A DNA stretch of 64,000 nucleotides from Alteromonas pelagimontana (lineage in GTDB: Bacteria; Pseudomonadota; Gammaproteobacteria; Enterobacterales; Alteromonadaceae). The stretch lies in NCBI RefSeq assembly GCF_002499975.2, contig NZ_CP052766.1, forward strand, positions 620,001 through 684,000, written 5' to 3'. The position numbers were made by a program, and so were the translations under genes. The notes under the pieces were generated by a model, which searched no databases, was not told the origin of the DNA, and worked only from the letters and a program-made list of their open reading frames with translations. Every line of letters begins with the position of its first letter. Position 1 is the first letter of the stretch. Positions 6,345-48,671 of the stretch are shown here, piece after piece.

Positions 6345-8108
6345 TTATTCCGCAGATTTCACTACCGTCGCGATGGCTAAGTCAGCTAGTTGTTGTGGAC
6401 TAGCAGGACTTGGGGCATTTGTAAGCGGACAAGCGGCCGTGGTTGTTTTAGGAAATGCCATAACGTCTCGAATCGATGTTGCGCCAGTCATCAGCATTAC
6501 CAGACGGTCAAGCCCAAACGCCAATCCCGCATGAGGAGGAGCACCAAATTGTAAGGCGTTAAGCAAGAAGCCGAATTTGTTGTTGGCTTCTTCCTCATCA
6601 ATACCTAGTATGGCGAATACCGCAGATTGCATATGCTGCTCATGAATACGCACTGAACCACCGCCTAACTCTACGCCGTTTAAAACCATATCGTAGGCAT
6701 CAGATAACGCGCCTACCGGATTGGCTTTAAGTTCTTCAGCAGACATCTCTCGGGGCGAGGTAAATGGATGATGCAGCGCATAAAGTTGTCCGTCTACTTC
6801 TTCGAACATGGGGAAATCTACTACCCACAGAGGTTTCCACTCTCCTTCCAGTAAATCGAAATCCTCACCTAGTTTTAACCGTAAAGCGCCCATGGCTTCG
6901 GTAACCACAGTGGCGTTATCAGCTCCGAATAATAGAATATCCCCGGCTTGTGCGCCGGTGCGTTGAATAATTGCGTCGGTAATATCTTCGCTAAGAAACT
7001 TGAGTACCGGCGACTGTAACCCTTCCTGACCCGCCGCCAGTTCATTGACTTTGATCCAGGCTAAACCCTTCGCGCCGTAGATACCCACAAATTTTGTATA
7101 CTCATCAATTTGTTTGCGGGAAAGGCTAGCCCCACCCGGTACTTTCACTACAGCAACACGCCCTTTAGGATCGGTGGCCGGGCCGCTGAAAACTTTGAAT
7201 TCAACAGATTCCAGTAGATCCGCTACATCAACCAATTCCAGCGGATTACGCAAATCCGGCTTATCACTGCCGTAGCGTTTCATGGCCTCAGCGTATGTCA
7301 TACGCGGAAAATCGCCCAGATCTACATCCAGCATCTTCTGAAATAAATCCCGAATCATGCCTTCTGTAATTTCCATTACGCCTTCAGCATTTAAAAACGT
7401 GGTTTCTATATCAATTTGAGTAAATTCAGGTTGACGATCTGCCCGTAAATCTTCGTCGCGAAAGCATTTTACAATTTGGTAATAGCGGTCCATGCCGGAC
7501 ATCATCAGCAATTGCTTAAACAACTGCGGCGATTGCGGCAACGCAAAGAATTCTCCTTTATGCGTGCGGCTTGGCACCAGATAATCCCGCGCGCCCTCAG
7601 GGGTAGCCTTGGTCAGAATAGGGGTTTCAATATCCAGAAAACCGTCATTTTCCAAATAACGTCTGACAGCAGCGGTAACTTGAGCGCGAAACTTGAGACG
7701 CTGACTCATTACCGGACGACGCAGATCCAAATAGCGGTAACGCAAACGTTGCTCTTCAGAGTTTTCCTGATTCCAATCCAAAGGCAATACCGCAGATTTA
7801 TTAAAAATTTCCAAACCGGTGCCGAGAATTTCAATTTCACCTGTACGCATCTGTTTGTTGATCTGCCCTTCAGGGCGAGGACGCACTTTGCCGGTAAGTT
7901 TGATACAGAATTCGCTACGCAAGGTATTAGCAATTTCCAGCACGTCAGGTAAATCAGGGTCGAATACGACCTGTACAATGCCTTCACGATCGCGAAGATC
8001 GATAAAGATGACACCGCCTAAGTCGCGACGTTTGTTTACCCAACCGCAAAGTGTAACTTCTTGCCCAACAAAAGATGAATCGATGTTCCCACAGTAATCT
8101 GTGCGCAT
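6345..8108 (-). CDS. aspS: Aspartate--tRNA ligase
   Basis: Class II aminoacyl-tRNA synthetase charging tRNA-Asp. It has an N-terminal OB-fold anticodon domain ([23 protein letters not shown]), a class II core (motif 2 in [18 protein letters not shown]), a bacterial GAD insertion in the middle, and motif 3 GLAFGLDRL near the end. The start is the ATG 8106-8108 with AGAGGT upstream, giving MRTDYCG as in homologues; a further 25 codons are open upstream but unlikely to be used. Length 587 (E. coli 590). Confidence 0.97.
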
Positions 8109-8298
8109 GGTCCCGGACCTCTGGTAGTGTCTACGCTGATGTGAATCCGCTATTTTACGCAACTTGCGCATTTGGGCGCGCAATGCTTCAATGTCGGCAC
8201 TATGAATAAGTTATCTAGCGGCGCCTGCGCAGCAGTCACATCAGCAACGCGATGTAAATTAAGGCCGCATAGTATAAACAAATGCACTCCAAACCCCA

Positions 8299-9195
8299 AT
8301 GACTAATAATACTTCGTCAACGCTTTATAGTGGTGTTCTGCCAGATGTTTTAATCGGGCTACCAATATGGCAGGAAACGACCTGGCCACTGCACTGGTTT
8401 GGCAATATTGCCGCTCGACACCGCCCACTGAATTATTATGCTAAAGAATTGAACAGCGTGGAGGGAAATACCACGTTTTATCATCTGCCCGCCCCTGATC
8501 TTGTCGAACGGTGGGGCAATGATGTTCCCGCCGCTTTTCGCTTTACTTTTAAATTTAATCAGCGCATAACCCACGAATATCAACTTCGCCATGTAGAAGC
8601 GCTGGTAAAGCAACAATTAACGCTACTTGCGCCCTTAGAAGAAAAGCTGGGGCTTTATCTCATTCAGTTACCTGCGAGCTTTGGTCCGGACGATTTACCA
8701 GCGCTTGAGCAACTGTTAAAAATATTACCCGACACTTTCCAGTACGCTGTAGAAATGCGTCATCCGGCCTTCTTCGCAAAACAGGAATGTGAGCGGCAGT
8801 TTAATCAGTTGCTTATTCGCTATGGGGTCAATCGAATAATCATGGATACCCGGGCGCTTTTTACTGGCCCTTGTGACAGCGCTCTTACCGCCGACGTAAG
8901 AATGAAAAAACCTCGCGTGCCCGTTAACGTCATTGCTACCGGTCAGCATCCGGTATTGCGATTTGTGGGAGGAAATGATGAAAACGTCAATCGCCAATGT
9001 TTGCAGCCATGGGTGAAGAAGTGCCATCAGTGGCGTTTGGAGGGCCGAAATCCCTACCTCTTTTTTCATCGTCCTGACAACAAAGACGCACCCTGGCTGG
9101 CCCAGCTGTATCTTAAAATGTATAACGCCGCTTATCCTCAAGCGGCGTTGCCCCTATTGCATTTTGCAGCTTCCCAACAAGAGGCGCTATTTTAA
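8299..9195 (+). CDS. yecE: DUF72 family protein (YecE-like)
   Basis: Member of the DUF72/YecE family (298 residues), whose TIM-barrel-like fold is known but whose reaction is not established. Recognisable stretches are LIGLPIWQETTW, YAKELNSVEGNTTFYHLP, YAVEMRHPAFF and NPYLFFHRPDNKDAPWLAQLY. It is divergent to aspS, the neighbour it also has in E. coli. It ends six bases before the converging glrR stop. Confidence 0.9.
   Translation: MTNNTSSTLYSGVLPDVLIGLPIWQETTWPLHWFGNIAARHRPLNYYAKELNSVEGNTTFYHLPAPDLVERWGNDVPAAFRFTFKFNQRITHEYQLRHVEALVKQQLTLLAPLEEKLGLYLIQLPASFGPDDLPALEQLLKILPDTFQYAVEMRHPAFFAKQECERQFNQLLIRYGVNRIIMDTRALFTGPCDSALTADVRMKKPRVPVNVIATGQHPVLRFVGGNDENVNRQCLQPWVKKCHQWRLEGRNPYLFFHRPDNKDAPWLAQLYLKMYNAAYPQAALPLLHFAASQQEALF
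9124..9149. other. Perfect inverted repeat in the 3' end of yecE
   Basis: AACGCCGCTT (9124-9133) and AAGCGGCGTT (9140-9149) form a 10-bp stem with a six-base loop inside the yecE coding end. It lies next to a convergent junction with almost no intergenic space. No T tract follows on either strand, so a role in ending either transcript is only a possibility. Confidence 0.3.
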
Positions 9196-9201
9196 TGTTT
9201 G

Positions 9202-10542
9202 CTAACGGAAGTCGCCTGCATCCAGTTCGTGTTTTTTCATTAATTTATGCATATCGGTGCGATTACGACCAGCGAGTTCCGCAGCACGAGTCACATTTCC
9301 GTCTGTCATTTTAAGCAGCTTGTATAAATATTTCTGTTCAAACGCGTCGCGAGCTTCGGTCAAAGTTGGCCAGCTTTGCTTAGTGGCAGAAAGGGCTTGT
9401 TCAACCAAATGCAGCGGAATGACCGGAGTTTGCGTTAGTGCCACGCATTGTTCCACCACGTTCACCAACTGGCGCACATTGCCCTGCCAATCCGTTTTTA
9501 CCATCAGCTGCATAGCATCATCAGAAAACTGGCTGACATTCACGCCGTGCCGCTGAGCACTCATTTGTAACAATGAGCGGGCCAGTAACGGAATATCTTC
9601 GCTTCGTTCTTTCAGAGAAGGCAGTTTTAGATTCACCACATTCAGTCGGTAATACAAATCTTCCCGGAATGTGCCCTCTTCCATCTCTTTGTGCAGATCT
9701 TTGTGAGTAGCAGAAATAATACGAACATCGATATCCACATGTTTGCTGCTTCCTACCGGCCGAATCTGCCGTTCCTGCAGCGCTCGCAGTAATTTCACCT
9801 GCAGCGTCATTGGCATGTCGCCAATTTCATCTAAAAACAGCGTGCCGCCGTCAGCTTCTCTGAATAGCCCTTGATTCGCCTGAACCGCACCGGTAAATGC
9901 GCCTTTAGCATGGCCAAAGAGTTCTGACTCCAGCAAATTTTCTGGCAGCGCGCCGCAGTTTATAGCCACAAAGGGTTGATCGTGGCGATTACTCGCCCGA
10001 TGAATGGCGTTGGCCAGCAACTCTTTACCTGTGCCGCTGGCGCCGCTTATCAACACACTGACTTCACGCTGTGCAATGCGGTAGGCCTGATCCAGCACAT
10101 TCAGCATGTCAGGAGAGCGGGTAATGATATCCTGACACCACTCACCCGGCTGCGCAGCCTGAGATTGACTTAACGCCTTTTTCAACAAACTTCGTAATTC
10201 TTCATGATCAACCGGCTTCGGCAGAAAGCCAAACACCCCGCGTTGCGTTGCTGCTACCGCATCCGCTATGGTGCCGTGAGCCGTCATCAGAATTACAGGG
10301 ATATCTTTACGGATTCCCATAATTTCTTCAAAAAGACTCAAACCATCAAGCCCAGGCATCCGCAAATCACTTAGCACCACATCAAAGTCGTCACTGCGAA
10401 TTTTACGTAACGCTGCCTGGCCATCTTCTACTGCTGTGACACGATAACCTTCGCCTTCAAGGCGAATCGTCAACAAACGCAATAAGCTTTTATCGTCATC
10501 TACCAACAAAAGTTGCGGGTGATTTCCTTTAATTTCGCTCAC
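9202..10542 (-). CDS. glrR: Sigma-54 dependent response regulator GlrR
   Basis: NtrC-type activator (446 residues; E. coli GlrR 444). The receiver domain has LLLVDDDKS, phosphoacceptor Asp in [13 protein letters not shown] and Lys in LPKPVDHEE. The AAA+ domain has Walker A GASGTGKE, the sigma-54 loop GAFTGA and Walker [15 protein letters not shown] Fis-type helix-turn-helix closes the protein ([20 protein letters not shown]). It starts with GTG overlapping the upstream gene (GTGA). In enterobacteria GlrR activates the GlmY small RNA; the targets here are unknown. Confidence 0.93.
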
Positions 10543-11126
10543 TGCTGACTACTCCTGTTCTTATCCATCAAAGTGGCTTCTACTTCTAATAATTCTTGCA
10601 TTTTTTTGCGTTGCGCTTCCAACTCGGCATGAAGCGCTTGCAACGATTGTGTCTGATCAGAATTCACGCGATTTAAAATCGTCATTGCCGATTCAAGCTC
10701 AAGCATCTCGTCGTTAGGTGAAATAACCAGAGTTTGCACAACCTGCTGCATCTGCGGTGTTAGCTTATCCTTTACCGAGGTTAACCAATGTTGTGCCCGA
10801 AGCCTATCCTGATAAGGCGTATCCACGGGCAAGGCAAGCACAATCTTCCTAATCATATCCGGTAAGCTACTACCTAGCGCAGAAATTGCTTTCTTACGTT
10901 CGGGCCAGCGAGTCGCTTCTGCGTGCACCCACAAACTAATCCAGTAATTCAGTTCACATTGATGATCAAATTTAGCCGTTTCTTTACTGACTAAACAAGG
11001 CATATCGTCTTCATCCAACACAGGGTTGTCCGACACGGCCGGCGTCTCGGGCAAACTGATTGTTTTATCTATCGCTGCACATCCTGTCATGAACAGAATT
11101 ATGGGCAATAACAAAACTTTATTCAT
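10539..11126 (-). CDS. qseG: QseG/YfhG-like outer-membrane lipoprotein
   Basis: A short lipoprotein signal (MNKVLLLPIILFMTGC, lipobox Cys 16) precedes a 180-residue helical domain. Similarity to E. coli QseG is inferred mainly from position: it lies between the sensor kinase and the sigma-54 regulator, overlaps both genes, and has the right size (195 residues). In E. coli QseG interacts with the kinase in the periplasm. The C-terminal third (SLQALHAELEAQRKKMQELL) looks like coiled coil. Confidence 0.75.
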   Translation of the reverse strand: MNKVLLLPIILFMTGCAAIDKTISLPETPAVSDNPVLDEDDMPCLVSKETAKFDHQCELNYWISLWVHAEATRWPERKKAISALGSSLPDMIRKIVLALPVDTPYQDRLRAQHWLTSVKDKLTPQMQQVVQTLVISPNDEMLELESAMTILNRVNSDQTQSLQALHAELEAQRKKMQELLEVEATLMDKNRSSQQ

Positions 11127-12522
11127 TAAAATTTTCCTTTTGCGGGATTGCTACTCTAAAACATACATCCGCATAGTCCACATCGACTACGGCGACATCA
11201 CCGTGCATCAATCTTGCACAGTCTGACACAATGGACAGGCCGAGGCCTGTACCGATGACGTTATCATTTCGGGGATCATCTCCACGGGTAAAAGGTTCGA
11301 ACAACTTTGCCACCTTCTCCTGCGGAATGCGTTTCCCTCGATTTGCTACATCCAATATGGTGTTTTTTCCTTTATTATAAATAGTCATATTGATTGGGCG
11401 CCCTACGGCACCATGGGCAACCGCATTAGATATCAGATTATCCAAAATTCTTCGGTATAATTCTTCATCCACATAGATGCTGGCTACCTTAATATCAACT
11501 GTGACTTCTCGTTCCTGTAAGGCAAGCGCGTAATCTCCAAGACAGTCTTTAACCATCTGATGCGGATTAACATCCGAAAAGGTCGGCTGAGCCTGTTGTA
11601 ACAAAAGATTATAATCCAGAAGCTTTTCAACAAGGGTATTTAATCGTTGGGTACTGGAAGAAAGTAAGGTCAAAACCTCAGCTTGCTGCGGATTTAGGTG
11701 GCCCACTACATTCTCCGAGAGCAAACTACATCCCTCTTTGATACTGGCTAAAGGTGTTTTCAATTCATGCGCCGCGTGACGTAACAACGCAGTGCGAATA
11801 TGTTCTAGCTGTTGCAACCGCTCTGCCAGCCAGTGTAAGTCTCGTTCTACGCCAATCAATTCTTTCGGTGCTTGCGTAGAAAGTGGGGGAAGCTCTCCCT
11901 GTTGCTGAGCAAGAATTCGAATAATTTGCTTCAGCTTTTTCACCGGATTTACGATTAGTTGCGATCCGAGTAAGATTAGCAATAATGAAACGCTTACCAG
12001 CATCGCAGTAGACCAGGCTTGCTTAGCCTGCATCGCGTTTAGATCGTCCTGTTGAATCGCCAATCGCTGCTGAATCGCCTTTTCCACATCACCGCGCATT
12101 GCGGAAACGCCAGAACCTAAAGACGCCAGATACGCGTTCAAGAGCAACTGATCCTGAATACTCCGAAAGTTTTTTAACTGCGCGATCTGTTTATCCAAAA
12201 GAGAACAAGTCTCGCTGCCTGCGATAGTACTACATAAATCCTCTTTTGCATCTACAAACTGTCTAAGCGCGCTGTCTGTAAGCTCAGCCACCGTGTCATT
12301 TTGGATAATAGCGTATTGACGTAACGTTCTCTCTAAATCAATTGCCGCACCGTCAAGTTGCTGCATTAATCCTACTACGTTTACCACATAACGTGTTTCT
12401 ACACTTGCCATCTGACCGACTTTTGCCAGATCGTTTTGACTTTGCCAGAGCAATGCGATGAGAGGAACTAAGGCCAGTACGAAACTGCCTACTGTTAATT
12501 GTCTTAAAGAACCGAGTTGCAC
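11119..12522 (-). CDS. glrK: Sensor histidine kinase GlrK (QseE)
   Basis: Membrane histidine kinase (467 residues) with two N-terminal helices (about 8-28 and 173-195) around a helical periplasmic domain. A HAMP-like linker follows, then the H-box HAAHELKTPLASIKEG, the N-box RILDNLISNAVAHG and the ATP lid VIGTGLGLSIVSDCARL. It is first in the glrK-qseG-glrR operon; starts GTG at 12520-12522. The periplasmic region contains two Cys close together (DLCSTIAGSETCSLL) that could form a disulfide. Confidence 0.9.
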   Translation of the reverse strand: MQLGSLRQLTVGSFVLALVPLIALLWQSQNDLAKVGQMASVETRYVVNVVGLMQQLDGAAIDLERTLRQYAIIQNDTVAELTDSALRQFVDAKEDLCSTIAGSETCSLLDKQIAQLKNFRSIQDQLLLNAYLASLGSGVSAMRGDVEKAIQQRLAIQQDDLNAMQAKQAWSTAMLVSVSLLLILLGSQLIVNPVKKLKQIIRILAQQQGELPPLSTQAPKELIGVERDLHWLAERLQQLEHIRTALLRHAAHELKTPLASIKEGCSLLSENVVGHLNPQQAEVLTLLSSSTQRLNTLVEKLLDYNLLLQQAQPTFSDVNPHQMVKDCLGDYALALQEREVTVDIKVASIYVDEELYRRILDNLISNAVAHGAVGRPINMTIYNKGKNTILDVANRGKRIPQEKVAKLFEPFTRGDDPRNDNVIGTGLGLSIVSDCARLMHGDVAVVDVDYADVCFRVAIPQKENFNE

Positions 12523-35941: not shown

Positions 35942-35979
35942 AATGCCAGTCAGTTAAGAGCTGACTGGCATTTTCTTTT
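35942..35979 (+). terminator. Terminator hairpin at the left IS end
   Basis: AATGCCAGTCAG (35942-35953) and CTGACTGGCATT (35961-35972) form a perfect 12-bp stem followed by a T-rich run to 35979 for rightward transcription. It overlaps the inverted repeat and the transposase stop. It could stop read-through from the efflux operon and so replace the terminator that the insertion destroyed. Confidence 0.75.
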
Positions 35980-37281
35980 GTATGGATACTTCTTGGGCTT
36001 TCGTCTAATCACTCGTGGATAATGCCTGTCTGGGATTTTATCGGGCAATGTAAACAGTCTCAGAGTATTAAGCAGCTCTTCATAGTGAGCAGGAAGCTTA
36101 CTTGCGCTTTGAACTGAAGTGAACATGAAGAACGCAATAACCTGCCTCATACAGAGATTGAAGCTCAATCTTGTCGGAGATAGTTCATCATAGTCTTTTG
36201 TCGCATCTATCATAGCGATCCTTATTAGGTTGTAAGCCAGCAACAATCCCCATAGCTCCTGGCGAACCATGTCAGGTTTTTTACTCCGTAGTGTATGTTT
36301 CGATTGATGCATTCCTTGTTTCATTTCCCTAAAACCTAATTCGATTTCCCAGCGTTGGGTATACACTTCTGTAACCTCGTCATAGGGGAAACGCAGTGGA
36401 TCGATTAGAGAGCTAAGGACGCGGTAGGTTTTTCCTTTTACCTGGTAGCTGGTTAGTCGAGCCGTTAGGTTTTCTGGCAGTTCGCTAAACTTCTTTCTGG
36501 CTTGAGGTGTGGTCGATAACGTCACAATTGCATCGTTCTTGCCTAGAGTATGCTTTACTTCATATTGTAAATCCTTTCTGGCAGGTATCATCCAGTGGGT
36601 ATCTTCTCCCACACTTTGCCAACTGTGTAGTAAACCAAGTGAGTAATATCCGCGGTCAAACAGGGTTAACGAGTGGCTAGGAACTGAAGGTAACAGTTGT
36701 TGAGCTAAACTCATTTCACCTGCATGCCGGCCATCAAACGCACTGTCTAATAGCAAATGGCTGGAAACTTCCATCAAACTGCACATCCGTACCTGTGGGT
36801 AGCTACTTTCCCCATGATTGTTGCTATCACAACCAAACTCATGACGGTTAATTTCGTTGTCGTGAGTCCGATATACCACGCCATCGACAGCCAGAAGGTT
36901 CAGTCCGCACCATTGCTCAAATGCCTGAGTGGTAAACGTTCTATGCGCTAATATTTGAAATGTTTGTTGTACAGCCTCGTAACCTAAACGTTGTCTACCC
37001 TGGACCAGCGCGCTGGGAGCAACAAGTTTATTTTTACCAGGCAAAGAAATATCCAGTCGACTGGCAATATCCCAAACTGTTTCATTGCGAAACAAGCTCA
37101 TTCCAACGACAGACCACATCACGGCTTCAAGCGGTAACCTCCTGCGCCGCACAGTTGCAACGCCTGCACGCTTAAAAGCTTGCTCAAGTATGTCAGGGTC
37201 AAGAATCGCTTTTAGTTTATCGAGGGAATTAACATCATCTAAAAATTGCGATGTATCAACTAATGCTTGAAGAAGAGACAT
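35950..37281 (-). CDS. IS4-family transposase
   Basis: 443-residue DDE transposase (E. coli IS4 442). Catalytic residues are visible as LAVDGVVYR (first Asp), TLFDRGYYSLG (second Asp) and the YREK signature YTQRWEIELGFREMKQ (Glu). The N-terminal FLDDVNSLDKLKAILDPDIL, RRRRLPLEAVMWSVVGMSLF matches IS4. No frameshift or stop, so it is probably functional. Confidence 0.96.
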   Translation of the reverse strand: MSLLQALVDTSQFLDDVNSLDKLKAILDPDILEQAFKRAGVATVRRRRLPLEAVMWSVVGMSLFRNETVWDIASRLDISLPGKNKLVAPSALVQGRQRLGYEAVQQTFQILAHRTFTTQAFEQWCGLNLLAVDGVVYRTHDNEINRHEFGCDSNNHGESSYPQVRMCSLMEVSSHLLLDSAFDGRHAGEMSLAQQLLPSVPSHSLTLFDRGYYSLGLLHSWQSVGEDTHWMIPARKDLQYEVKHTLGKNDAIVTLSTTPQARKKFSELPENLTARLTSYQVKGKTYRVLSSLIDPLRFPYDEVTEVYTQRWEIELGFREMKQGMHQSKHTLRSKKPDMVRQELWGLLLAYNLIRIAMIDATKDYDELSPTRLSFNLCMRQVIAFFMFTSVQSASKLPAHYEELLNTLRLFTLPDKIPDRHYPRVIRRKPKKYPYKRKCQSALN

Positions 37282-38857: not shown

Positions 38858-39268
38858 TTAATTAGTTTCCGCTGGCTCCACTAGCGGGCGGGTGCCATTT
38901 ACTAACGCTTTAGCAAGCAATTTATGAGTAAGTAACGAAAGAAGTTCGGTTTCTTCGTCACTGCGCTCTCCATCCACACCAGTTATTGCTATAGCGACTT
39001 CCATTGCCTTATCTGCATCAAAAAGCAGATCGCCTTTTAGTGCACGCAGGTAATCGATTTCCTGGCCTGCATCCAAAGCCTGACGGGTCTGATAAATGGC
39101 ATCATTAAAAAATGCTTCTCGACATATGGGGCTCTGCCAATCCAATTTTTCTAAAACGCTTTCAAGATATTCCTGTTCAGAAAGTGTGACTTTTTTGTCT
39201 ACCTGATAAAGTAAAACCGACAACCGGATTAACGCCTGATTAAAGGCCTGTTGAGGGGATAACTGCAT
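38858..39268 (-). CDS. Small TerB-like helical protein
   Basis: 136 residues from the ATG at 39266-39268 (GGAGAT upstream). FNQALIRLSVLLYQVDKKVTLSE and AMEVAIAITGVDGERSDEET repeat the pattern of TerB-like proteins, with acidic residues after each helix, but similarity is lower than for 15548-15988. Soluble, function unknown. It follows the SMC-like operon by about 200 bases in the same direction, but no link is proven. Confidence 0.6.
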   Translation of the reverse strand: MQLSPQQAFNQALIRLSVLLYQVDKKVTLSEQEYLESVLEKLDWQSPICREAFFNDAIYQTRQALDAGQEIDYLRALKGDLLFDADKAMEVAIAITGVDGERSDEETELLSLLTHKLLAKALVNGTRPLVEPAETN

Positions 39269-39474
39269 AAAACATCTCCATAGATGTGCGATACACTGCA
39301 CCACGACAACACTGCTCTGCGACCTTGCAGAACCAGCGATTTCACCATAGCATCAGTATGCATAATTTGAGTGACAAGCGTATTACGACCCTTTACTACA
39401 TAAAGTTCAGCTTGTTAACTAAATGTAAATAATTGGGACTTAAAAAAGAATCGCAAGGCCATTTTCGCACTTAA

Positions 39475-40341
39475 TTAAAGATAAATTTCTTGCAATGGAA
39501 TGGCATAAGCCAGCATGTGTTGTTGCAATACAGCCACCATGTTTGCTTCATTACACAGCGCCTGCAGTTTGGCATGAGTTGAACTAAAAACATTGCTGCG
39601 CAGAAATCCTACCGAACGCGCTTGCTTTTGATAAAGGTGTGGTTGATTAATTTTATAAAAAGCCTGTGGATTAATAGTGGTTAGATCAGGTAATAGCAAA
39701 CTCTGGATATGTGTAGTCGTTAACGCAATCTCTGCGCCTTTAGGGTCATAATCACAAAAGGCAATGATTCTTGCCTTTGTCGCGTAACACTCCAACAGCG
39801 AGGAAACGCCTCCGCTTTGAGATTTGTCATGCCCGCGATAGACAGCCAAAGTATTTTCATCTCTACCTGCCCACATCGCTTCATACCAGTGATCAAAGAT
39901 ATCCAGATTTTCTATTACGACTATCTTATTAATGCTGGTCTGCTGAAGTTGCGCGAGCGGCACCCGCAAAGAGGTTCCTTTGGGCAAAGGCGCGTTTAAC
40001 CCAATGCAAGCATAATTGCCTTGATGATGATTGACTAATACGTGAGTGTCTTCGGGTGCAAGCCTGGCCTGCTTTTCCGCACCAGAAACGCCAGCGAAGG
40101 CAACCCGGTTTTGCGTAGCAGTCGAGATAAAAAACAGATCTGGCTGATGTAAATGTAATTCCTGTTTTAATTTTTGTTTTGACTGCTCTGAGAATATCAG
40201 CTGCTTGCCCCGCCATTTGAGCAAGTCGCCGTAGTTATCGCTAAGATACCGCGCCAACCCGTCTGACGGTGTATAAACTAGCTTCCCCGGTTTAAGTAAA
40301 AAATCCCGCAGCGCATTTTGTTGGCGTCGATTAAGCACCAC
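39475..40341 (-). CDS. Toprim-domain protein of SMC-like (Wadjet-type) operon, JetD/MksG-like
   Basis: 288 residues. The N-terminal part looks like a small winged-helix region (YTPSDGLARYLSDNYGDLLK). The C-terminal half carries a Toprim-like site: Glu 144 in INKIVVIENLDIF, a Gly-rich VYRGHDKSQSGG, and the acidic pair Asp 197/Asp 199 in IIAFCDYDPKGAEIA. JetD/MksG nucleases of Wadjet-type systems have the same order of motifs. It shares one base with the preceding kleisin-like gene (TAATG), so it is translated with the complex. Expected to nick or cut DNA; not shown here. Confidence 0.7.
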   Translation of the reverse strand: MVLNRRQQNALRDFLLKPGKLVYTPSDGLARYLSDNYGDLLKWRGKQLIFSEQSKQKLKQELHLHQPDLFFISTATQNRVAFAGVSGAEKQARLAPEDTHVLVNHHQGNYACIGLNAPLPKGTSLRVPLAQLQQTSINKIVVIENLDIFDHWYEAMWAGRDENTLAVYRGHDKSQSGGVSSLLECYATKARIIAFCDYDPKGAEIALTTTHIQSLLLPDLTTINPQAFYKINQPHLYQKQARSVGFLRSNVFSSTHAKLQALCNEANMVAVLQQHMLAYAIPLQEIYL

Positions 40342-41561
40342 TAACGCAGCCCTAGCTCTACATCTTCAATAATAAAATTACCGGTGTACTGCGGGTGTGG
40401 CTGCCCGGTGGTGTCGATAGCAAAATAGGTTTGCTCTTCCAGCGTCAGGCCGTGATATCCGCCAATCACCTGATAAAGCCAGGCTTCAGCATCAAAATCC
40501 AGATCCCGAGCATGCAGATACTCCAGCGCGGTAATGCGCTTGCCACTTTCAATGACTTCACAAAAATACCTTTCAACCGCCTGTTTAAGTTTGTCTTCTT
40601 TAAACTCAACGGCGGTTTGTTGTTCTACCACTATCTGCTGTGCAGCGCGTTCGGGTTGTAATTCTTGTCGAGAACGATTTATTGCTTTAATCATTCCCAC
40701 CAGTTGCTGTAAATCGGCTTCATGTTCCATCCGATTTACATCGACAGCTGCTGGCGCTATGAGTCTTTGCGCCTGATTAAACAGTTTCGGCACCTGGCTT
40801 AAATTGTAATAATTGCCCGGCTGGAAATCCGGCTTTTGCTCCATATGTAAAACAAAGCCCTTCAGCAGGCGGGTACGACCTCTGAATTCGCGAAAACGCC
40901 CTAGCAGCGCCAGCAGGCGTGCCTGCACTATTGATAGTTCCTGAGTTACCCGTGAGAAGCTATGCTGTAAGGTAACAATCAACAGGTTTCGTAGTTCACG
41001 ATTGTTACCGGCCAACTCGCTCAATTCTTCAAACCGAAACATTTCCAGTTGCTTAAGCAACTCAGATACCTGACTTTGCGCCAGCTCGTTTTCGCGTATT
41101 TTGGCGTCGATAGAGGCAACATAACCAAATTCATTGTTGATCCGGCCAAACAGCGTACGTACGCTATTGGCAAGTGATTCGGTCAGCGTGTAGACATGCT
41201 CGGTTACGTCCGCCAGATGCACTTCACTTTCTGCAAACCGGCTATGAGCAAGTGCTTCTTTATAATGCTGCGCCAGGGTTTTGAGACTGGCCAAAGAAGA
41301 GCCGATATTCGCATCCAACTGACGATTGCGTTCGTCGTGCAAGCCACTTTCAAGAAGGTGGCGCACCGCATTTTTCAGGCGGATCCCAACTTCTTCATCA
41401 GGTCGCCACAATACCCCAAGCTGAAGTAAATTTTCAATAACTTTGGGGCTATGCTGTGTTTCATCCAACGTACCTGAAAGATATACTTCCATGATGAGAT
41501 CAGCATGTCTGCTCAAGGCGTTAAGGAGTTTTACCCCAGCCTGATGCAGGTTTGGATTCAT
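40341..41561 (-). CDS. MksF/JetA-like kleisin candidate
   Basis: 406-residue, largely helical soluble protein. N-terminal helices (HQAGVKLLNALSRHADLIME, VIENLLQLGVLWRPDEEVGI) suggest a winged-helix/dimerisation part. A long heptad-rich middle follows (about 85-235), then a second globular region ending DVELGLR. Sequence similarity to MukF is not obvious; the assignment rests on size, helix content and its place between the MksE-like and Toprim genes. It starts within the stop of the MksE-like gene. Confidence 0.6.
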   Translation of the reverse strand: MNPNLHQAGVKLLNALSRHADLIMEVYLSGTLDETQHSPKVIENLLQLGVLWRPDEEVGIRLKNAVRHLLESGLHDERNRQLDANIGSSLASLKTLAQHYKEALAHSRFAESEVHLADVTEHVYTLTESLANSVRTLFGRINNEFGYVASIDAKIRENELAQSQVSELLKQLEMFRFEELSELAGNNRELRNLLIVTLQHSFSRVTQELSIVQARLLALLGRFREFRGRTRLLKGFVLHMEQKPDFQPGNYYNLSQVPKLFNQAQRLIAPAAVDVNRMEHEADLQQLVGMIKAINRSRQELQPERAAQQIVVEQQTAVEFKEDKLKQAVERYFCEVIESGKRITALEYLHARDLDFDAEAWLYQVIGGYHGLTLEEQTYFAIDTTGQPHPQYTGNFIIEDVELGLR

Positions 41562-42196
41562 TACAGTAAGCTCCCTTGTTGCACGGCCTGCTCCGCCTGC
41601 TCTGTCAAACTTAACGCCTCAGTTTCATCAATAAACTTAATCACGTCGTAGAGGTATTCTATCTTTCCGGTGGCAAGGTAAATCTGCTTTTCCTGATTAG
41701 GCTTCATAAGATAGCCCAGATCAGTCAGTCGCTTGAACACCTGTTTAAGCTGTCCTTCCAACGCCGTACTGGTGGAGCCGAACATCCGATAGCGAGAAAT
41801 CTTTTCCAGTTGCTCATTAAATGCAGGCGTATCTTCGATGGTGCTTTGCAGCTCATTTAGCCGTATGGCGCTGCCTTGGGTAATGGGAACATCGTTGCCG
41901 CTCGCCTGCTGAACCAACAGCAGCCATTCTACAAGAGGCAATAAGCTGCTGGCGGTTTCCTGAAGCTGTTGACCGAGCACTTTACGCTCACTTTCGCCAA
42001 GAGTCTGATAAGCGGCGAAGAAGACCTCTCCTTCTGCTGCCGTGGCCAGCGTGCGATTTAGAACATTTAATTGGCTCTCGATTTTATCGCTGTTGCCGCT
42101 GACTTTAAGGTAGCGCCATGCTTCTTCATTAGTAATTTGACAAATAAATTCGCCCGACAACAAATGTTCCAGAATTCGGCCGTGTTCGGTAATCAT
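41561..42196 (-). CDS. MksE/JetB-like condensin accessory subunit
   Basis: 211 residues. EHLLSGEFICQITNEEAWRYL near the start, GEVFFAAYQTLGESERKVLG and a C-terminal winged-helix-like part (QLKQVFKRLTDLGYLMKPNQ) fit the MukE/MksE/JetB role of a small winged-helix subunit binding the kleisin. It overlaps the SMC gene by four bases (ATGA) and the next gene by one. Confidence 0.7.
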   Translation of the reverse strand: MITEHGRILEHLLSGEFICQITNEEAWRYLKVSGNSDKIESQLNVLNRTLATAAEGEVFFAAYQTLGESERKVLGQQLQETASSLLPLVEWLLLVQQASGNDVPITQGSAIRLNELQSTIEDTPAFNEQLEKISRYRMFGSTSTALEGQLKQVFKRLTDLGYLMKPNQEKQIYLATGKIEYLYDVIKFIDETEALSLTEQAEQAVQQGSLL

Positions 42197-45100
42197 GCAG
42201 AAGCCTCCTGCTGACGTTGTTTAATCAATTCACTAATGGCGCTGACACGCGGCTGCACTACCTGCAATTTACGGGTGGCTTTATCGATAAGATACCGGTT
42301 GTCGAACAATGACAGCACCTCCGATTCAGGATTGGGAAACGCACCTACCACAGAAATGTTGTTGTTTTGGCAGGCATCGAAAATTTTCTTAACGTTATTT
42401 TGGTGAAGTGTGCCCAATTCATCAATCGGCCAGTGGATTGTGGTGTTTGCCTTACCTCGTAACAACCGGGTAAAAGCCAGCAGGAATTTGCATAAAATTA
42501 AATATGCCATACCATGGCTGGATGACTCGTTCAGTTGACGGTCGGTGCGGATCACCAATTCCGAATTGCCTTCTTTTAAATGAAGTTCGATGTCGAGCAA
42601 CTTACTTATGCCGCCGGTAAGCGCGGCCCTTCCAAGAATATCCAGCACCCGGCGCATACTTAACGCATAATCATCATCCGGTAATTCCACCTTACCGCTT
42701 GCCAGCCACTCTTCATAAAGCAGATTAAACTGGGTAAGCTCTGGCCAGAATTCGAGTTCGCTGATGCGCGAGCGAATTTTTACTGCGGAATGAGAAACAC
42801 CGTCAAGAAAGAGTTCTTCGTCAACTTCTTTGCTAATTCGCTTACTTTGATTGACAATTCGCTTGTCGATATCTTCGAGTACCCGATAATAAGAAGTCAG
42901 ATCAGCACCAAATATTCTGCCCTGCTCTCGTAATCCCTGCAGCTTCTGCGGAACAATAACATTAAGTAGCTGCGCCAGATGACTTACCAGGCGTCGATGG
43001 TCGACACTTTTGTGCCCTTGCGTCGTGATTACCGCACATTCTTCCCGTGACCGCTCCCAGGTATCAGATAAACCAGTACCTGCCTGAGCTGCAATAAGCT
43101 GATCAAAATGCTCAACATGGGCTTTAATATCGTCCAGCAGACGCTGGCGTTCCTGAAGTAGGGTTAGCCCTTCAGAAATACGTTGACCGATGCTTACTGC
43201 GCTTTTGCTCTGTTCGTTCATCTCGGTAGAGACAGGCAGGTTTATTTTGCCAAGCTGACGAATTATTTGTTGTACATCATTTTCCTGCTCTCTGGCCTGA
43301 TTAAGATGCTGCTCAATCTGAGCCTGCAATTCCTTAAGCTGCTGACGCTTATTTTTATACTCGCTGCCCTGGCGTTCCAGCTCCCGCTCCGCCTTTGCGC
43401 TTTCTTTACGCGCCTTGGCCAATCCTTGTTGCCAGGTAACTTTGTGACCCATAAATACATTCTTATACCAATGGTCGTAATCGCTTACTTTATGCCGATG
43501 GCGTTCTGTGTGATTAATATCCTGCTGAAGCTGGTTAATCGCCTTTTGCAAGCTGCCGATTTCATCAATATCCACACCGCGATTTGCCAGTTCGTCTGCC
43601 AACCATTGTTCAGTCTTTTGTTTATCCTCTTTGGCACTGTCTTTGGCTTTTAGAATATGCCGCTCAATCTGGCGCAACTTGTCTTCGCTATCGGTGATCA
43701 ACTGCTGCCAATGGAACTGATGTTCGGTTTCGGCTTCACGCTGCTGGTCCCGTACTTCCTGCATCGCCTCTTTGTGCTGCGCTTGGCACTTTTCCTGCTC
43801 GGCAGCATTTGCCGTTACACGCGCCTGATTACCTTTTCTGCGCTCGCCTACAGCCTGTAAATATTCCTTTTGAACCTGATCTTTATTTAGCTGAACGCGT
43901 TTACGATTGGCTTCAGCACTGCGGTTTTCACTTTCATATCTAGCTTGCATCAACTCAGCATTACGCACTGATTCGCTGGCTTTCGCGAGCTCTGCCTCGG
44001 CATCGTTCTGCTGGGAAAGTTTCTCTGCCAGCTTATTCTGCGCCTGTGCCAGCCTGTTTTGCAGCGCCTGCTCAGAGTCGGCGTATGGCGGTGTATCAAC
44101 CGGTGCAAGATCAAGCATTAGCCCAAACAAGCTATCATGCTCGTCACCCACCTGAGGTTTCAAATCGTCTCGCGCTAACAGATCTGGATGAATGACTTTA
44201 CCAAGCGTAGACTCCCAACCGGCCTTTTCTCGACGAAGATATTCAAGCAGACTGTTATTACCTGGATACAATAACGCCTCTACCTTATCTACCTGTGCCT
44301 GCTGTGCCTGATAAGCAATAGACGTTTTTTCAAGCGCACTGTTCGCCTGAGCTCTTGCTTTCACTGCGCTCTCGTATTCGAGGTGGGCACGCCGATGATT
44401 ATCCCTGCTTGCATCTTCAACCATGCCGGCTTCTTTTATTTCGGCATCCAGCAAATCCAGCTGGCTTTGCTCAAATTCCGTGAAGCCCATATTGTTCAGC
44501 GCCGCTGCAATTTCCGCATGTTGGATTTTTAATTCGTTCAGCCGCGCGCTATATTCCTTCTCAACCTCATTTAGCTGCAGACGATATTCATCGCGAATAG
44601 CTTGCAGGCTCTCTTGTTGCTCGGATTTTTGCTGCGCCAGCTTGCTGTAGCCATTTTGTTTCTCTTCATCGAACGCTTCAAGCTCCATAAGGTGCTTTTC
44701 ACTTAACGCACGCATGCGTTTATTAAACGCCGATTCAATATCCTGATGTTTTTCGGTAAGCAGGTTATAGCGGGTAGATAAGGTACTGATTTCGCTCTGC
44801 CACTGTCCCAGTTTCTGTACACTGTCTTTAAGGGTGTCGATGTCTTGACTTTGCCAGTTTTCAAATTCCCGCTCTACATTATCCAACTCTTTTTCAAGCT
44901 TATTAGCATCGGCCCGTGCCTCTGATAGCTGCTGATTAAGGGTGTCCTGCGTGTTACTCCACTGCTGCTCATCTGTTTTGAGTGTATGCAGCGTATCATC
45001 CAGTTGTTGCTGTTTTTCTACCAGCATCGCGCTCAACGTGGATTCGTCCACTGCAAACTGGTGCTTGAGCAAGCCGAGACGTTGTTCATTCTGTTGAAGC

Positions 45101-45873
45101 TGATGATCGGCTTGTTCCAGTTTCGCAAATTCCGGTCGAATGGAATCGAACTCTTTAATGAGGTGACATTCCTTGATCCAGTCTTCAACCCGATTACGAC
45201 TTAAACTGGAACTTGGCGGTTTTACGCCGTCTTCCTCAAGAATCGCAGCAATCATGGCCTTGATGGTTTCCATTTTGCCTTCTTTGGAATGAACGGCTTT
45301 TGCCAGCTTTTCGATGTGACGAAGGTGAATGCCGGATTCGGTCATACTGAAGATTGATGCATAACCCAGCAACTCTCGGCTATTGGCTACACTACCTAAA
45401 GTGGCACGATCGTTCTGGAGAATTGCGCGATAGTCGCGGGTATTTAGCAGGTTCGTGACGAGCGTATGGTTGCGTTTGAGGTTTCTTGCTAACTCGTTCA
45501 TGCTGATACTGGCGTGCTCTTTAGACTTATTCTGGTAAAGATAATCCGTCAGTTCAAAGGGTTTGGCAATAAAGCGGTAATTGACGCCGCCGCCGGAGGA
45601 AGCCATCACAGCCTGGCACAAATCGCCTTGGCTGCGAATATACTCATAAATAATAAAGCTGGATTCCCGAGGCAGGTACCATTTTTCGAAGCTGTCTCGG
45701 GTTGCAGGAACTACGCGGCTGGGGTATTCACCATAGAAAACCGGAATCAAACGTTGCAAGGTAGTTTTACCGGAAGCATTAGTACCACATATATTGGTAT
45801 GTCCATCAAGTTTTAGCTCAACGACGCCTGGCAGATGGGTATCAATAAGAATAATGCGTTTTAAGCCAGCCAT
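42193..45873 (-). CDS. SMC-like ATPase (MksB/MukB/JetC type)
   Basis: 1226 residues from the ATG at 45871-45873 (AGGAAA upstream). The N-terminal head has Walker A GTNASGKTT (30-38) within KLDGHTNICGTNASGKTTLQ. Two long coiled-coil stretches (about 260-490 and 640-900) flank a hinge-like centre, with a further coiled coil to about 980. The C-terminal head has the ABC signature region NESSSHGMAYLILCKFLLAF and Walker B NTTIHWPIDELGTL. This is the ATPase of a condensin-like complex. First of four overlapping genes; order SMC-E-F-Toprim differs from the A-B-C-D order of described Wadjet operons. Confidence 0.85.
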   Translation of the reverse strand: MAGLKRIILIDTHLPGVVELKLDGHTNICGTNASGKTTLQRLIPVFYGEYPSRVVPATRDSFEKWYLPRESSFIIYEYIRSQGDLCQAVMASSGGGVNYRFIAKPFELTDYLYQNKSKEHASISMNELARNLKRNHTLVTNLLNTRDYRAILQNDRATLGSVANSRELLGYASIFSMTESGIHLRHIEKLAKAVHSKEGKMETIKAMIAAILEEDGVKPPSSSLSRNRVEDWIKECHLIKEFDSIRPEFAKLEQADHQLQQNEQRLGLLKHQFAVDESTLSAMLVEKQQQLDDTLHTLKTDEQQWSNTQDTLNQQLSEARADANKLEKELDNVEREFENWQSQDIDTLKDSVQKLGQWQSEISTLSTRYNLLTEKHQDIESAFNKRMRALSEKHLMELEAFDEEKQNGYSKLAQQKSEQQESLQAIRDEYRLQLNEVEKEYSARLNELKIQHAEIAAALNNMGFTEFEQSQLDLLDAEIKEAGMVEDASRDNHRRAHLEYESAVKARAQANSALEKTSIAYQAQQAQVDKVEALLYPGNNSLLEYLRREKAGWESTLGKVIHPDLLARDDLKPQVGDEHDSLFGLMLDLAPVDTPPYADSEQALQNRLAQAQNKLAEKLSQQNDAEAELAKASESVRNAELMQARYESENRSAEANRKRVQLNKDQVQKEYLQAVGERRKGNQARVTANAAEQEKCQAQHKEAMQEVRDQQREAETEHQFHWQQLITDSEDKLRQIERHILKAKDSAKEDKQKTEQWLADELANRGVDIDEIGSLQKAINQLQQDINHTERHRHKVSDYDHWYKNVFMGHKVTWQQGLAKARKESAKAERELERQGSEYKNKRQQLKELQAQIEQHLNQAREQENDVQQIIRQLGKINLPVSTEMNEQSKSAVSIGQRISEGLTLLQERQRLLDDIKAHVEHFDQLIAAQAGTGLSDTWERSREECAVITTQGHKSVDHRRLVSHLAQLLNVIVPQKLQGLREQGRIFGADLTSYYRVLEDIDKRIVNQSKRISKEVDEELFLDGVSHSAVKIRSRISELEFWPELTQFNLLYEEWLASGKVELPDDDYALSMRRVLDILGRAALTGGISKLLDIELHLKEGNSELVIRTDRQLNESSSHGMAYLILCKFLLAFTRLLRGKANTTIHWPIDELGTLHQNNVKKIFDACQNNNISVVGAFPNPESEVLSLFDNRYLIDKATRKLQVVQPRVSAISELIKQRQQEASA

Positions 45874-46352
45874 AAATTTCCTGTTCTGTTTACTACAATG
45901 GAGTATGAAAGTGGCGAGGCAAGCCATCGCCTAAACCTGAGGATCAAGTGAAAAGCTACGGCAGCAACGTGCTACCTTATGTAGCGGCTTTCATTTAAGA
46001 AAGTTACCCGACGTTTGCCTCACCTGAAGATTTATAGATCTGCCAGTTTATTACGAAACCTTTTCTTTGGACAGTCTATCAAGGCATGTGACAGAAGATC
46101 GTTGTGCAATTGCGGAATTTCTGAGCAAAAAAACGAAAGGTTCAAGGCTGGCTGGCCTTTGTCGTTCTACCGTTGTTCTACATTAACCTGTGTCGATCGC
46201 AGCGCGAACTATTAAGCCTAGCCAGCTAAACAGGCACAGAGCAACAACGAGCTAAACAGATTTACCGTTCCCTTCGAACAGGCTGCAAGGCTCTCAAGCT
46301 GCCATCTAAAGTCTTTTAAAAAATAGGGATGATAGGTTGCTAATACGCGAGT
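45874..46352. other. Non-coding stretch upstream of the SMC-like operon
   Basis: About 480 bases that must carry the operon's promoter. No strong sigma-70 match: TTGCCT followed at 17 bases by ATTGTA is the best I see. A 66-codon plus-strand frame at 46015-46215 has no protein-like character. No RNA gene recognised. Confidence 0.4.
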
Positions 46353-47276: not shown

Positions 47277-48671
47277 CTATCTTGGTGGAAACATTCCGCC
47301 GCCACCACCCATTCCGCCAGGCGGCATCATGCCTTTCATTTGGCGCATCATCTTTTTCATACCGCCTCCAGACATTTTCTTCATCATCTTTTGCATCTGC
47401 GTAAACTGTTTAAGCAAGCGATTAACATCTTGAATCTGGGTGCCAGAACCTGCTGCGATACGGCGTTTGCGCGAACCTTTTATAATTTCAGGACGAGTAC
47501 GTTCAGCCGGTGTCATGGAATTAATGATGGCTTCCATCTGGTTAAACTGCTTATCGTTGGCCTGATCTTTAATTTTTTCCGACATACCGCCCATTCCAGG
47601 CATTTTGTCGAGCAAACCCATCATGCCGCCCATATTCTTCATTTGTTCAAGCTGTTCTTTAAAATCCTGCAGATCAAAGCCCTTGCCCTTCTGCACTTTT
47701 TTCGCCAGCTTTTGCGCTTTGTCCTTATCGACTTTACGCTCAACTTCTTCAATTAAGCTAAGAACATCACCCATGCCAAGGATTCGCGAAGCAATACGCT
47801 CGGGATGGAAAGGTTCTAAGGCATCAATTTTTTCACCCATACCAATAAACTTAATGGGCTTACCCGTAATCTGGCGAACCGACAATGCAGCTCCACCGCG
47901 AGCATCACCATCAGCTTTGGTAAGAATCACACCGGTGAGAGGCAAGGCATCATTGAACGCTTTGGCTGTATTTGCCGCATCCTGACCGGTCATAGCATCG
48001 ACGACGAAAAGCGTTTCGATAGGTTTTACCGCAGCGTGAAGCGCCTTGATTTCATCCATCATGTCGCTGTCAACATGCAGGCGTCCGGCGGTATCCACCA
48101 GCAGCACATCATAAAACTGACGTCTCGCCTGTTCGATTGCACCTTGTACGATATCGACCGGCTTCTGCAAAATAGTAGAAGGATGGAAACCAACATTGAC
48201 TTCCGTCGCCAGGGTTTCCAGCTGCTTAATAGCGGCAGGACGATATATATCAGCACTTACCACCATGACCTTTTTCTTTTCACGTTCAGTCAGGTATTTG
48301 GCGAGCTTCCCCACACTGGTAGTTTTACCCGCCCCTTGTAAACCGGCCATCAGCACAACTGCGGGAGGTTGAGTAGCAAGATTAAGCTTCTCATTCGCTT
48401 CCCCCATCACCGCTTCAAGTTCGGACTGGACGATCTTAATGAAAACCTGGCCTGGCTTTAAACTTTTGGTGACCTCAGTTCCTACCGCTCTGGCCTTAAC
48501 CTGCGCGACGAAATCTTTCACTACCGGAAGAGCAACGTCAGCTTCGAGTAAAGCCATGCGCACTTCACGTAAGGTTTCTTTAATGTTGTCTTCAGTTAAG
48601 CGCCCTCGCCCACTGACGTTTCTCAGTGTCTGGCCAAGACGTTCAGATAAATTTTCAAACATACGCTGCAA
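47277..48671 (-). CDS. ffh: Signal recognition particle protein Ffh
   Basis: SRP54 GTPase that targets nascent membrane proteins with 4.5S RNA and FtsY. N domain (LSERLGQTLRNVSGRGRLTE), G domain with GLQGAGKTTSVGKLAKYL, the DTAGRL motif and TKADGDARGGAALS. The Met-rich M domain ends in a Gly/Met tail (MKGMMPPGGMGGGGGMFPPR). 464 residues (E. coli 453). On the minus strand a TATAAT (48699-48704) lies 27 bases before the start, with a weak -35 (TACGTT). Confidence 0.97.
   Translation of the reverse strand: MQRMFENLSERLGQTLRNVSGRGRLTEDNIKETLREVRMALLEADVALPVVKDFVAQVKARAVGTEVTKSLKPGQVFIKIVQSELEAVMGEANEKLNLATQPPAVVLMAGLQGAGKTTSVGKLAKYLTEREKKKVMVVSADIYRPAAIKQLETLATEVNVGFHPSTILQKPVDIVQGAIEQARRQFYDVLLVDTAGRLHVDSDMMDEIKALHAAVKPIETLFVVDAMTGQDAANTAKAFNDALPLTGVILTKADGDARGGAALSVRQITGKPIKFIGMGEKIDALEPFHPERIASRILGMGDVLSLIEEVERKVDKDKAQKLAKKVQKGKGFDLQDFKEQLEQMKNMGGMMGLLDKMPGMGGMSEKIKDQANDKQFNQMEAIINSMTPAERTRPEIIKGSRKRRIAAGSGTQIQDVNRLLKQFTQMQKMMKKMSGGGMKKMMRQMKGMMPPGGMGGGGGMFPPR

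Follow-up and report, generated by a model that had tools for sequence, protein, structure and literature searches.

A four-gene SMC-E-F-Toprim operon of Alteromonas pelagimontana, probably a Wadjet/MksBEFG-like system whose nuclease is often missing

Does an SMC complex that comes with a Toprim nuclease defend the cell against circular DNA, or does it take care of the chromosome? This question is raised by an operon of Alteromonas pelagimontana that codes for an SMC-like ATPase, two partners here called E and F, and a Toprim protein, and that lies in a stretch of 64,000 nucleotides (contig NZ_CP052766.1, positions 620,001 to 684,000) to which we refer as the window. The original prediction offered either a divergent plasmid- or phage-restricting condensin or a domesticated version serving chromosome maintenance. 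These need not be a choice, as the motor (SMC, E and F) was found in 36 of the 36 genomes of the genus and the nuclease in two. We consider it likely that the operon belongs to a new branch of the Wadjet/MksBEFG kind, which would restrict circular DNA when armed with the nuclease and serve as an accessory condensin when disarmed. The genes of the operon are the following:

42193..45873, minus strand: SMC-like ATPase (DUF3584), 1226 amino acids (open reading frame, PF12128, motifs GTNASGKTT, SSSHG and IDELG)
41561..42196, minus strand: KITE-type subunit E, MksE family, 211 amino acids (PF21980)
40341..41561, minus strand: probable MukF-like kleisin F, 406 amino acids (AlphaFold2 model and Foldseek)
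39475..40341, minus strand: Toprim nuclease (DUF7281), 288 amino acids, GTG start (Pfam, conserved residues and model)

The four genes run from 45873 to 39475 in the order SMC-E-F-Toprim and overlap by 4 bases (SMC/E), 1 base (E/F) and 1 base (F/Toprim), so that reading frames and motifs agree with what had been predicted, namely four genes overlapping by 1-4 bases and an ATPase with GTNASGKTT and IDELG. The arrangement is not due to chance, since SMC, E and F were found adjacent in 128 loci, the window's operon included. This set of fetched loci leaves out the fragmented ones of three genomes of the family sample (G462, G481 and G499), one of the class sample (G277) and nine genomes that the phylum sample added, and one of its members (L063) is shortened by a contig end. 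The SMC protein matched Pfam DUF3584 (PF12128) over its full length (1044.5 bits, residues 1-1191). Translation from the ATG at 45873 yields 1226 amino acids; from another in-frame ATG, at 45927, it would yield 1244. Walker A (GTNASGKTT), signature (SSSHG) and Walker B (IDELG) are all there, and G30, N32, G35, K36, T37, S1119, G1121, D1151 and E1152 were invariant across 15 SMC rows. Eight of the 128 rows were flagged by the motif pattern; one is a split SMC gene (L141) and the other seven fail the signature pattern only, six of them reading SSTG or SSNG and the seventh (L178) containing unread bases. A search of the PDB with the SMC profile gave coiled-coil matches, SMC3 among them, and the N-terminal part gave ABC ATPases and Rad50 through the Walker A region.

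The fourth protein matched Pfam DUF7281 with 139.1 bits. The Toprim-like site proposed for it, E144, D197 and D199, was invariant in 34 homologues. The Toprim fold, whose absence had been named beforehand as fatal to the prediction, is well backed by the structure model, which matches topoisomerase VI-A, MksG, Spo11 and JetD; the profile of the protein has MksG as its best PDB match. The Toprim part takes up approximately residues 95-288, the span that most rows of the VIA-align comparison are confined to, and the preceding ~95 residues, compared with the N-terminal CAP part of JetD, are helical with a short hairpin in the model. It is thus well backed that this is a short Toprim nuclease, kin to topoisomerase VI-A, MksG and JetD, for which cutting is predicted.

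Subunit E exceeded the cut-off of Pfam MksE (PF21980) with 28.7 bits against 27, and among its relatives, at E-values up to 0.01, 14 of 16 matched MksE and 4 of 16 DUF4194; a PDB sequence search with E gave no KITE match. For F nothing was over the Pfam cut-offs and the sequence search gave no kleisin match. Its AlphaFold2 model (predicted local distance difference test, pLDDT, of 78.8) had as top Foldseek match chain C1 of the MukBEF entry 7nz2 (E-value 3.2e-4) and as fourth match chain 8as8_E of a JetABC entry (6.3e-3), and VIA-align placed MukF level with unrelated helical bundles. The idea of a kleisin-like F is therefore moderately backed by model and Foldseek, with no Pfam family behind it, and F is probably a MukF-like kleisin. 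In many public records the F of relatives is labelled phosphoenolpyruvate carboxylase, which looks like a spreading misannotation.

According to a 2023 review (PMC10586767), JetABCD extrudes DNA at the expense of ATP, recognises small circles and has its Toprim dimer cut them. The window's proteins resemble that system in an SMC with Walker A, signature and Walker B, like JetC, in a KITE subunit (MksE by Pfam), like JetB, and in a Toprim protein with modelled fold and conserved acidic residues, like JetD. The differences are in the order, SMC-E-F-Toprim versus kleisin, KITE, SMC and nuclease in JetABCD, in the shorter nuclease, and in a motor that is genus-wide with a nuclease that is often absent. 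The Wadjet models of PADLOC-DB 2.0.0 gave 1.8e-4 over 43 residues for the window's SMC, 0.017 for E and nothing for F and Toprim; at 1e-5 the PADLOC-DB scan assigned no family to the SMC, and neither NCBIfam nor PADLOC-DB had a convincing name for any of the four proteins. MksBEF and MksBEFG share with our family the MksE subunit, the MksG likeness of the Toprim profile and the existence of forms with and without nuclease. However, the described order is mksFEBG (PMC10123090), whereas the SMC gene comes first here, and here many losses are reconstructed within a single family, a few of them with scars. The unusual order noted from the sequence alone is thus real, and it sets the operon apart from Wadjet I-III and MksBEF, from Wadjet also by model recognition. 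The proposed kinship to Wadjet/MksBEFG is borne out as well by Pfam MksE, by MksG as best PDB match and by the model matches. There is a good probability that the system works like Wadjet/MksBEFG.

MukBEF also has a motor of SMC, KITE and kleisin, and the F model is nearest to MukF in Foldseek, but the window's SMC matches DUF3584 only and not PF04310. We rejected MukBEF, as PF04310 was not found in any of the 36 genus genomes, the window's included, in a search of 60 relatives. Lamassu was another candidate, having an SMC-like ATPase and an effector in one operon, and with it comes the proposal that the system is directed against phages, the motor sensing circular or branched phage DNA that the Toprim protein cuts. 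Some SMC relatives do match the LmuB models of PADLOC weakly (2 of 15 rows one model and 1 of 15 another, the best at 1.3e-6), and the whole operon is found on one phage, where it may exclude competing phages. Nevertheless, none of the window's four proteins matched an effector or partner of Lamassu, a KITE subunit and a probable kleisin are present, and JetABCD, of like make-up, restricts circular plasmids (PMC10586767). Lamassu was therefore rejected and an anti-phage role appears improbable. A literature search, whose coverage stops short of most subscription journals and bioRxiv, found nothing on DUF7281 or on MksBEF together with Alteromonas, and the five titles retrieved for DUF3584 concern subjects other than SMC complexes.

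The distribution of motor and nuclease was followed in samples of the genus, order, family, class and phylum, which overlap and are subsets of the genomes of each group. DUF3584 was over the cut-off in 36 of 36 genus genomes, all of which hold SMC-E-F. The counts were 8 of 24 among single genomes from the order's other families, 92 of 196 in the family sample, 7 of 274 in the class sample and 22 of 398 in the phylum sample. DUF7281 is scarcer: 7 of 60 relatives have it over the cut-off (within the genus only G000 and G012), as do 27 of 196 genomes in the family sample and 12 of 398 in the phylum sample. Uniform presence in relatives, which the original prediction had regarded, together with a lack of effect on plasmids, as telling against it, therefore holds within the genus for SMC, E and F and fails for Toprim. 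The nuclease adjoins F in 31 of the 128 loci (iterated profiles), among them all eight of the most divergent, and in 30 of the 31 it starts between -12 and +104 bases from the end of F; in L153 the mechanical reading frame starts further upstream. Near relatives can differ: Bowmanella denitrificans and B. dokdonensis have the nuclease and B. pacifica does not, and of two genomes named Alteromonas ponticola G012 has it and G015 does not. A profile scan of contigs gave at least three loci, and outside the set Billgrantia campisalis has the nuclease and Shewanella salipaludis has no nuclease reading frame after F. Two genomes, G483 and G497, carry DUF7281 copies apart from their own SMC-E-F. One orphan Toprim gene of the DUF7281 family (L181, 5425-6288) has no SMC-E-F genes nearby and another (L180, 217-1131) lies apart from its genome's own SMC-E-F at a contig end; the neighbours of both, judged by eye, resemble defence genes.

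On the SMC-E-F tree, presence and absence of the nuclease require at least 12 changes, a count that is blind to gain versus loss. If the nuclease is taken as ancestral and its loss as irreversible, 22 losses result (24 weak branches collapsed). The nuclease tree and the SMC-E-F tree agree, with a distance correlation of 0.78 that none of 999 permutations reached (n=31). In addition, a few deletion scars could be seen: L154 retains the 5' 208 bases and 3' pieces of the nuclease, L142 approximately its last 18 bases, and L049 65 aligned bases of the 5' end at 71% identity. On account of the trees and of these scars, an ancestor that held the nuclease, with many later losses, is a better reading than repeated gain. 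We rejected a divergent nuclease concealed after F, since in the 97 nuclease-less loci the nuclease profile found nothing but two fragments in L154, and tblastn of 33 nucleases (31 adjacent and two orphan) against the 1,600 bases that follow F hit L154 only. In L172 the contig stops 321 bases after F and the absence rests on the search of the whole genome (G005). Relocation elsewhere in the genus genomes was also discarded, DUF7281 being present in just two of the 36.

The motor left behind is not decaying. SMC pairs without nuclease had ratios of nonsynonymous to synonymous substitution (dN/dS) of 0.016-0.045 in 11 of 12 cases (one saturated). Of seven nuclease-bearing pairs, two were saturated and five gave 0.022-0.073; two of three mixed pairs gave 0.017 and 0.051. 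These values are rough where dS exceeds 1, as it does in several. SMC-E-F without nuclease is thus under strong purifying selection. No column of SMC, E or F was at least 90% conserved with the nuclease and below 60% without it; 24 columns showed the opposite pattern, which is expected because the nuclease-bearing set is more divergent. It could be argued from here that the complex is a condensin for chromosome maintenance throughout, with the Toprim protein as an optional topological or repair partner acting on chromosomal DNA rather than plasmids. The lack of relaxation in motors without nuclease fits this, as does the presence of SMC with E and F in every genome of the genus, at one site where it is visible. 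Furthermore, the nine genomes with MukB among the 60 relatives all lack DUF3584, as if the two were interchangeable. Canonical Smc is present in 36 of 36 genus genomes (in G026 and G035 as two pieces, each under the cut-off). Against maintenance throughout, the close kin of the nuclease are MksG and JetD, and the nuclease evolves in a manner that looks like conflict. Between L149 and L159 the SMC is 95.7% identical (dS 0.47) and the nuclease 57.9% (dS 1.69), so that the nuclease diverges more quickly and has apparently been swapped between alleles.

The copies on mobile elements also speak against maintenance throughout. Plasmid records with distant SMC relatives numbered 44; 17 were typed as conjugative and 5 cover 80% of the SMC protein in one place. 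One phage, Dolichospermum phage Dfl-JY45, also has a distant relative, which aligns over 99% of the protein with 30% identity. We inspected 14 of these 45, the phage and 13 plasmid records that were mostly the best-scoring ones and hence non-random. By profile SMC, E and nuclease were present in 14 of 14 (nuclease E-value 2.2e-12 or better) and F in 13, with counterparts of E144, D197 and D199 in all 14 nucleases, although L218 lacks the glycine that follows. The contrast with the 31 of 128 loci in whole genomes is large, both sets being non-random and their rows related. One of these nuclease-keeping copies (L228) adjoins genes annotated as TnsA and TnsD, which belong to Tn7-like transposition. 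All things weighed, a pure maintenance condensin is unlikely. The SMC-E-F-Toprim order is kept in 13 of 14. The exception is L229 (Persicobacter plasmid pPP6, 4272-10556), where E precedes SMC and the Toprim gene follows SMC; a 397-amino-acid gene without profile match occupies the kleisin place. This Bacteroidota version, with an order like that of JetABCD, may connect the two arrangements. Split genes were seen in L219 (SMC and F) and L228 (SMC). In the latter (6983-11955, on an IncC plasmid with the Tn7-like transposition genes) an IS256-like element interrupts the SMC gene. The phage copy (L216, PP438435.1 86907-93262) is a complete SMC-E-F-Toprim operon on a 209-kb cyanobacterial phage, with all its genes annotated as hypothetical.

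How did the window's species come to have the nuclease? Two genes outside the system mark the site at either side:

38858..39304, minus strand: TerB-like gene (PF05099, 21.2 bits, under the cut-off of 24.4)
47277..48671, minus strand: ffh (named from sequence)

In the genus, SMC-E-F is flanked by rnd, the TerB-like gene, ffh, ccsA and corC as far as the fetched stretches reach, ffh being found in 35 of 36 stretches and TerB likewise in 35 of 36, with the window counted in both. The claim that the operon splits an otherwise conserved neighbourhood thus failed: relatives hold SMC-E-F at the same site, and the difference lies in the allele and in the Toprim gene. In the aspS tree the window's genome is nested well within the genus (starred sets of 7, 9 and 13 rows). 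A tree of six flanking genes makes G011 and G014 its neighbours (support 91) inside a nine-member starred set, and puts G012 and G015 in a different place, next to G006. The two trees conflict on G006, but both separate the window from G012 and G015. The SMC-E-F tree, by contrast, joins the window, G012 and G015 to loci from other genera (starred) and unites the remaining 33 genus loci in a starred clade of their own. When all 36 genus rows are constrained to one group, the log-likelihood falls by 206.6 units (approximately unbiased test, p 1.8e-6, 59 rows); the group was suggested by the first tree and so not picked blind. Since the SMC-E-F tree conflicts in this way with the aspS and flanking-gene trees, a nuclease-bearing allele replaced the older operon of the genus in place in the window's species. 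A lineage outside the genus was rejected as an explanation by aspS and the flanking genes. Downstream of F, on its strand, there is a TerB-like gene in 35 of 36 genus loci. Six loci from genera g255, g260 and g263, which join the 33 genus loci by SMC-E-F, have it as well, and none of the 86 others does. The site is therefore an old one in that line, and the allele of the window came from a line that lacks it. A foreign allele could be a neutral passenger without any current role, but the four frames are open, the ATPase and Toprim residues are intact, and the operon occupies the place where other members of the genus keep their own SMC-E-F, all of which makes a passenger very hard to credit.

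By analogy with the known families, the Wadjet/MksBEFG-like complex that we favour would be an ATP-driven DNA motor in which the MukF-like kleisin F, together with the KITE subunit E, bridges two SMC heads. If it behaves like Wadjet, extrusion would exhaust a small circle, whose DNA would then be passed to a Toprim dimer and cut, removing the plasmid; the chromosome would be too large to trigger the cutting. The nuclease is a detachable part, and the remaining motor would most likely be an accessory condensin beside Smc, a role that is suggested by its constraint and by its presence in every genus genome examined. There is a precedent in P. aeruginosa MksBEF, which in PMC10586767 is said to derive likely from loss of JetD and to contribute to chromosome organisation; the same source calls the descent of MksBEF and MukBEF from plasmid-restricting machines a tempting speculation and their evolutionary relationship unresolved. 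We put at about even chances that a change from defence to housekeeping is in progress here, in which the armed form is mobile, travelling on conjugative plasmids, a Tn7-like element and a large cyanophage, and the disarmed form has become a genus-fixed condensin that can be re-armed by one-step allele replacement. The window's species seems to have been re-armed in this single step.

The repeated loss can be followed at close range, in near relatives that differ in the nuclease. With armed and disarmed forms side by side in Bowmanella and Alteromonas ponticola, it becomes testable whether removal of the cutter turns a defence system into a chromosome organiser. A further question is what a bare motor does in cells that already have Smc. 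The operon also adds a branch that PADLOC-DB missed in the window and that plasmids themselves, as well as a phage, carry.

Some minor observations can be added. G045 (L060), rated 100% complete, has DUF3584 and the nuclease, with neither Smc nor MukB over the family cut-offs, and may rely on the SMC-E-F-Toprim complex. Weak DUF7281 and DUF3584 matches a few kb apart were seen in three further genomes (G353 C28:145620-148875, G393 C42:3657-6906 and G640 C19:166684-170042), with SMC-like frames of ~980-1016 amino acids, and these are possibly another Wadjet-like branch. Finally, a reading frame identified by eye as an IS4-like transposase is located at 35950-37281 of the window, ~2 kb downstream of the operon, past the TerB-like and hydrolase genes.

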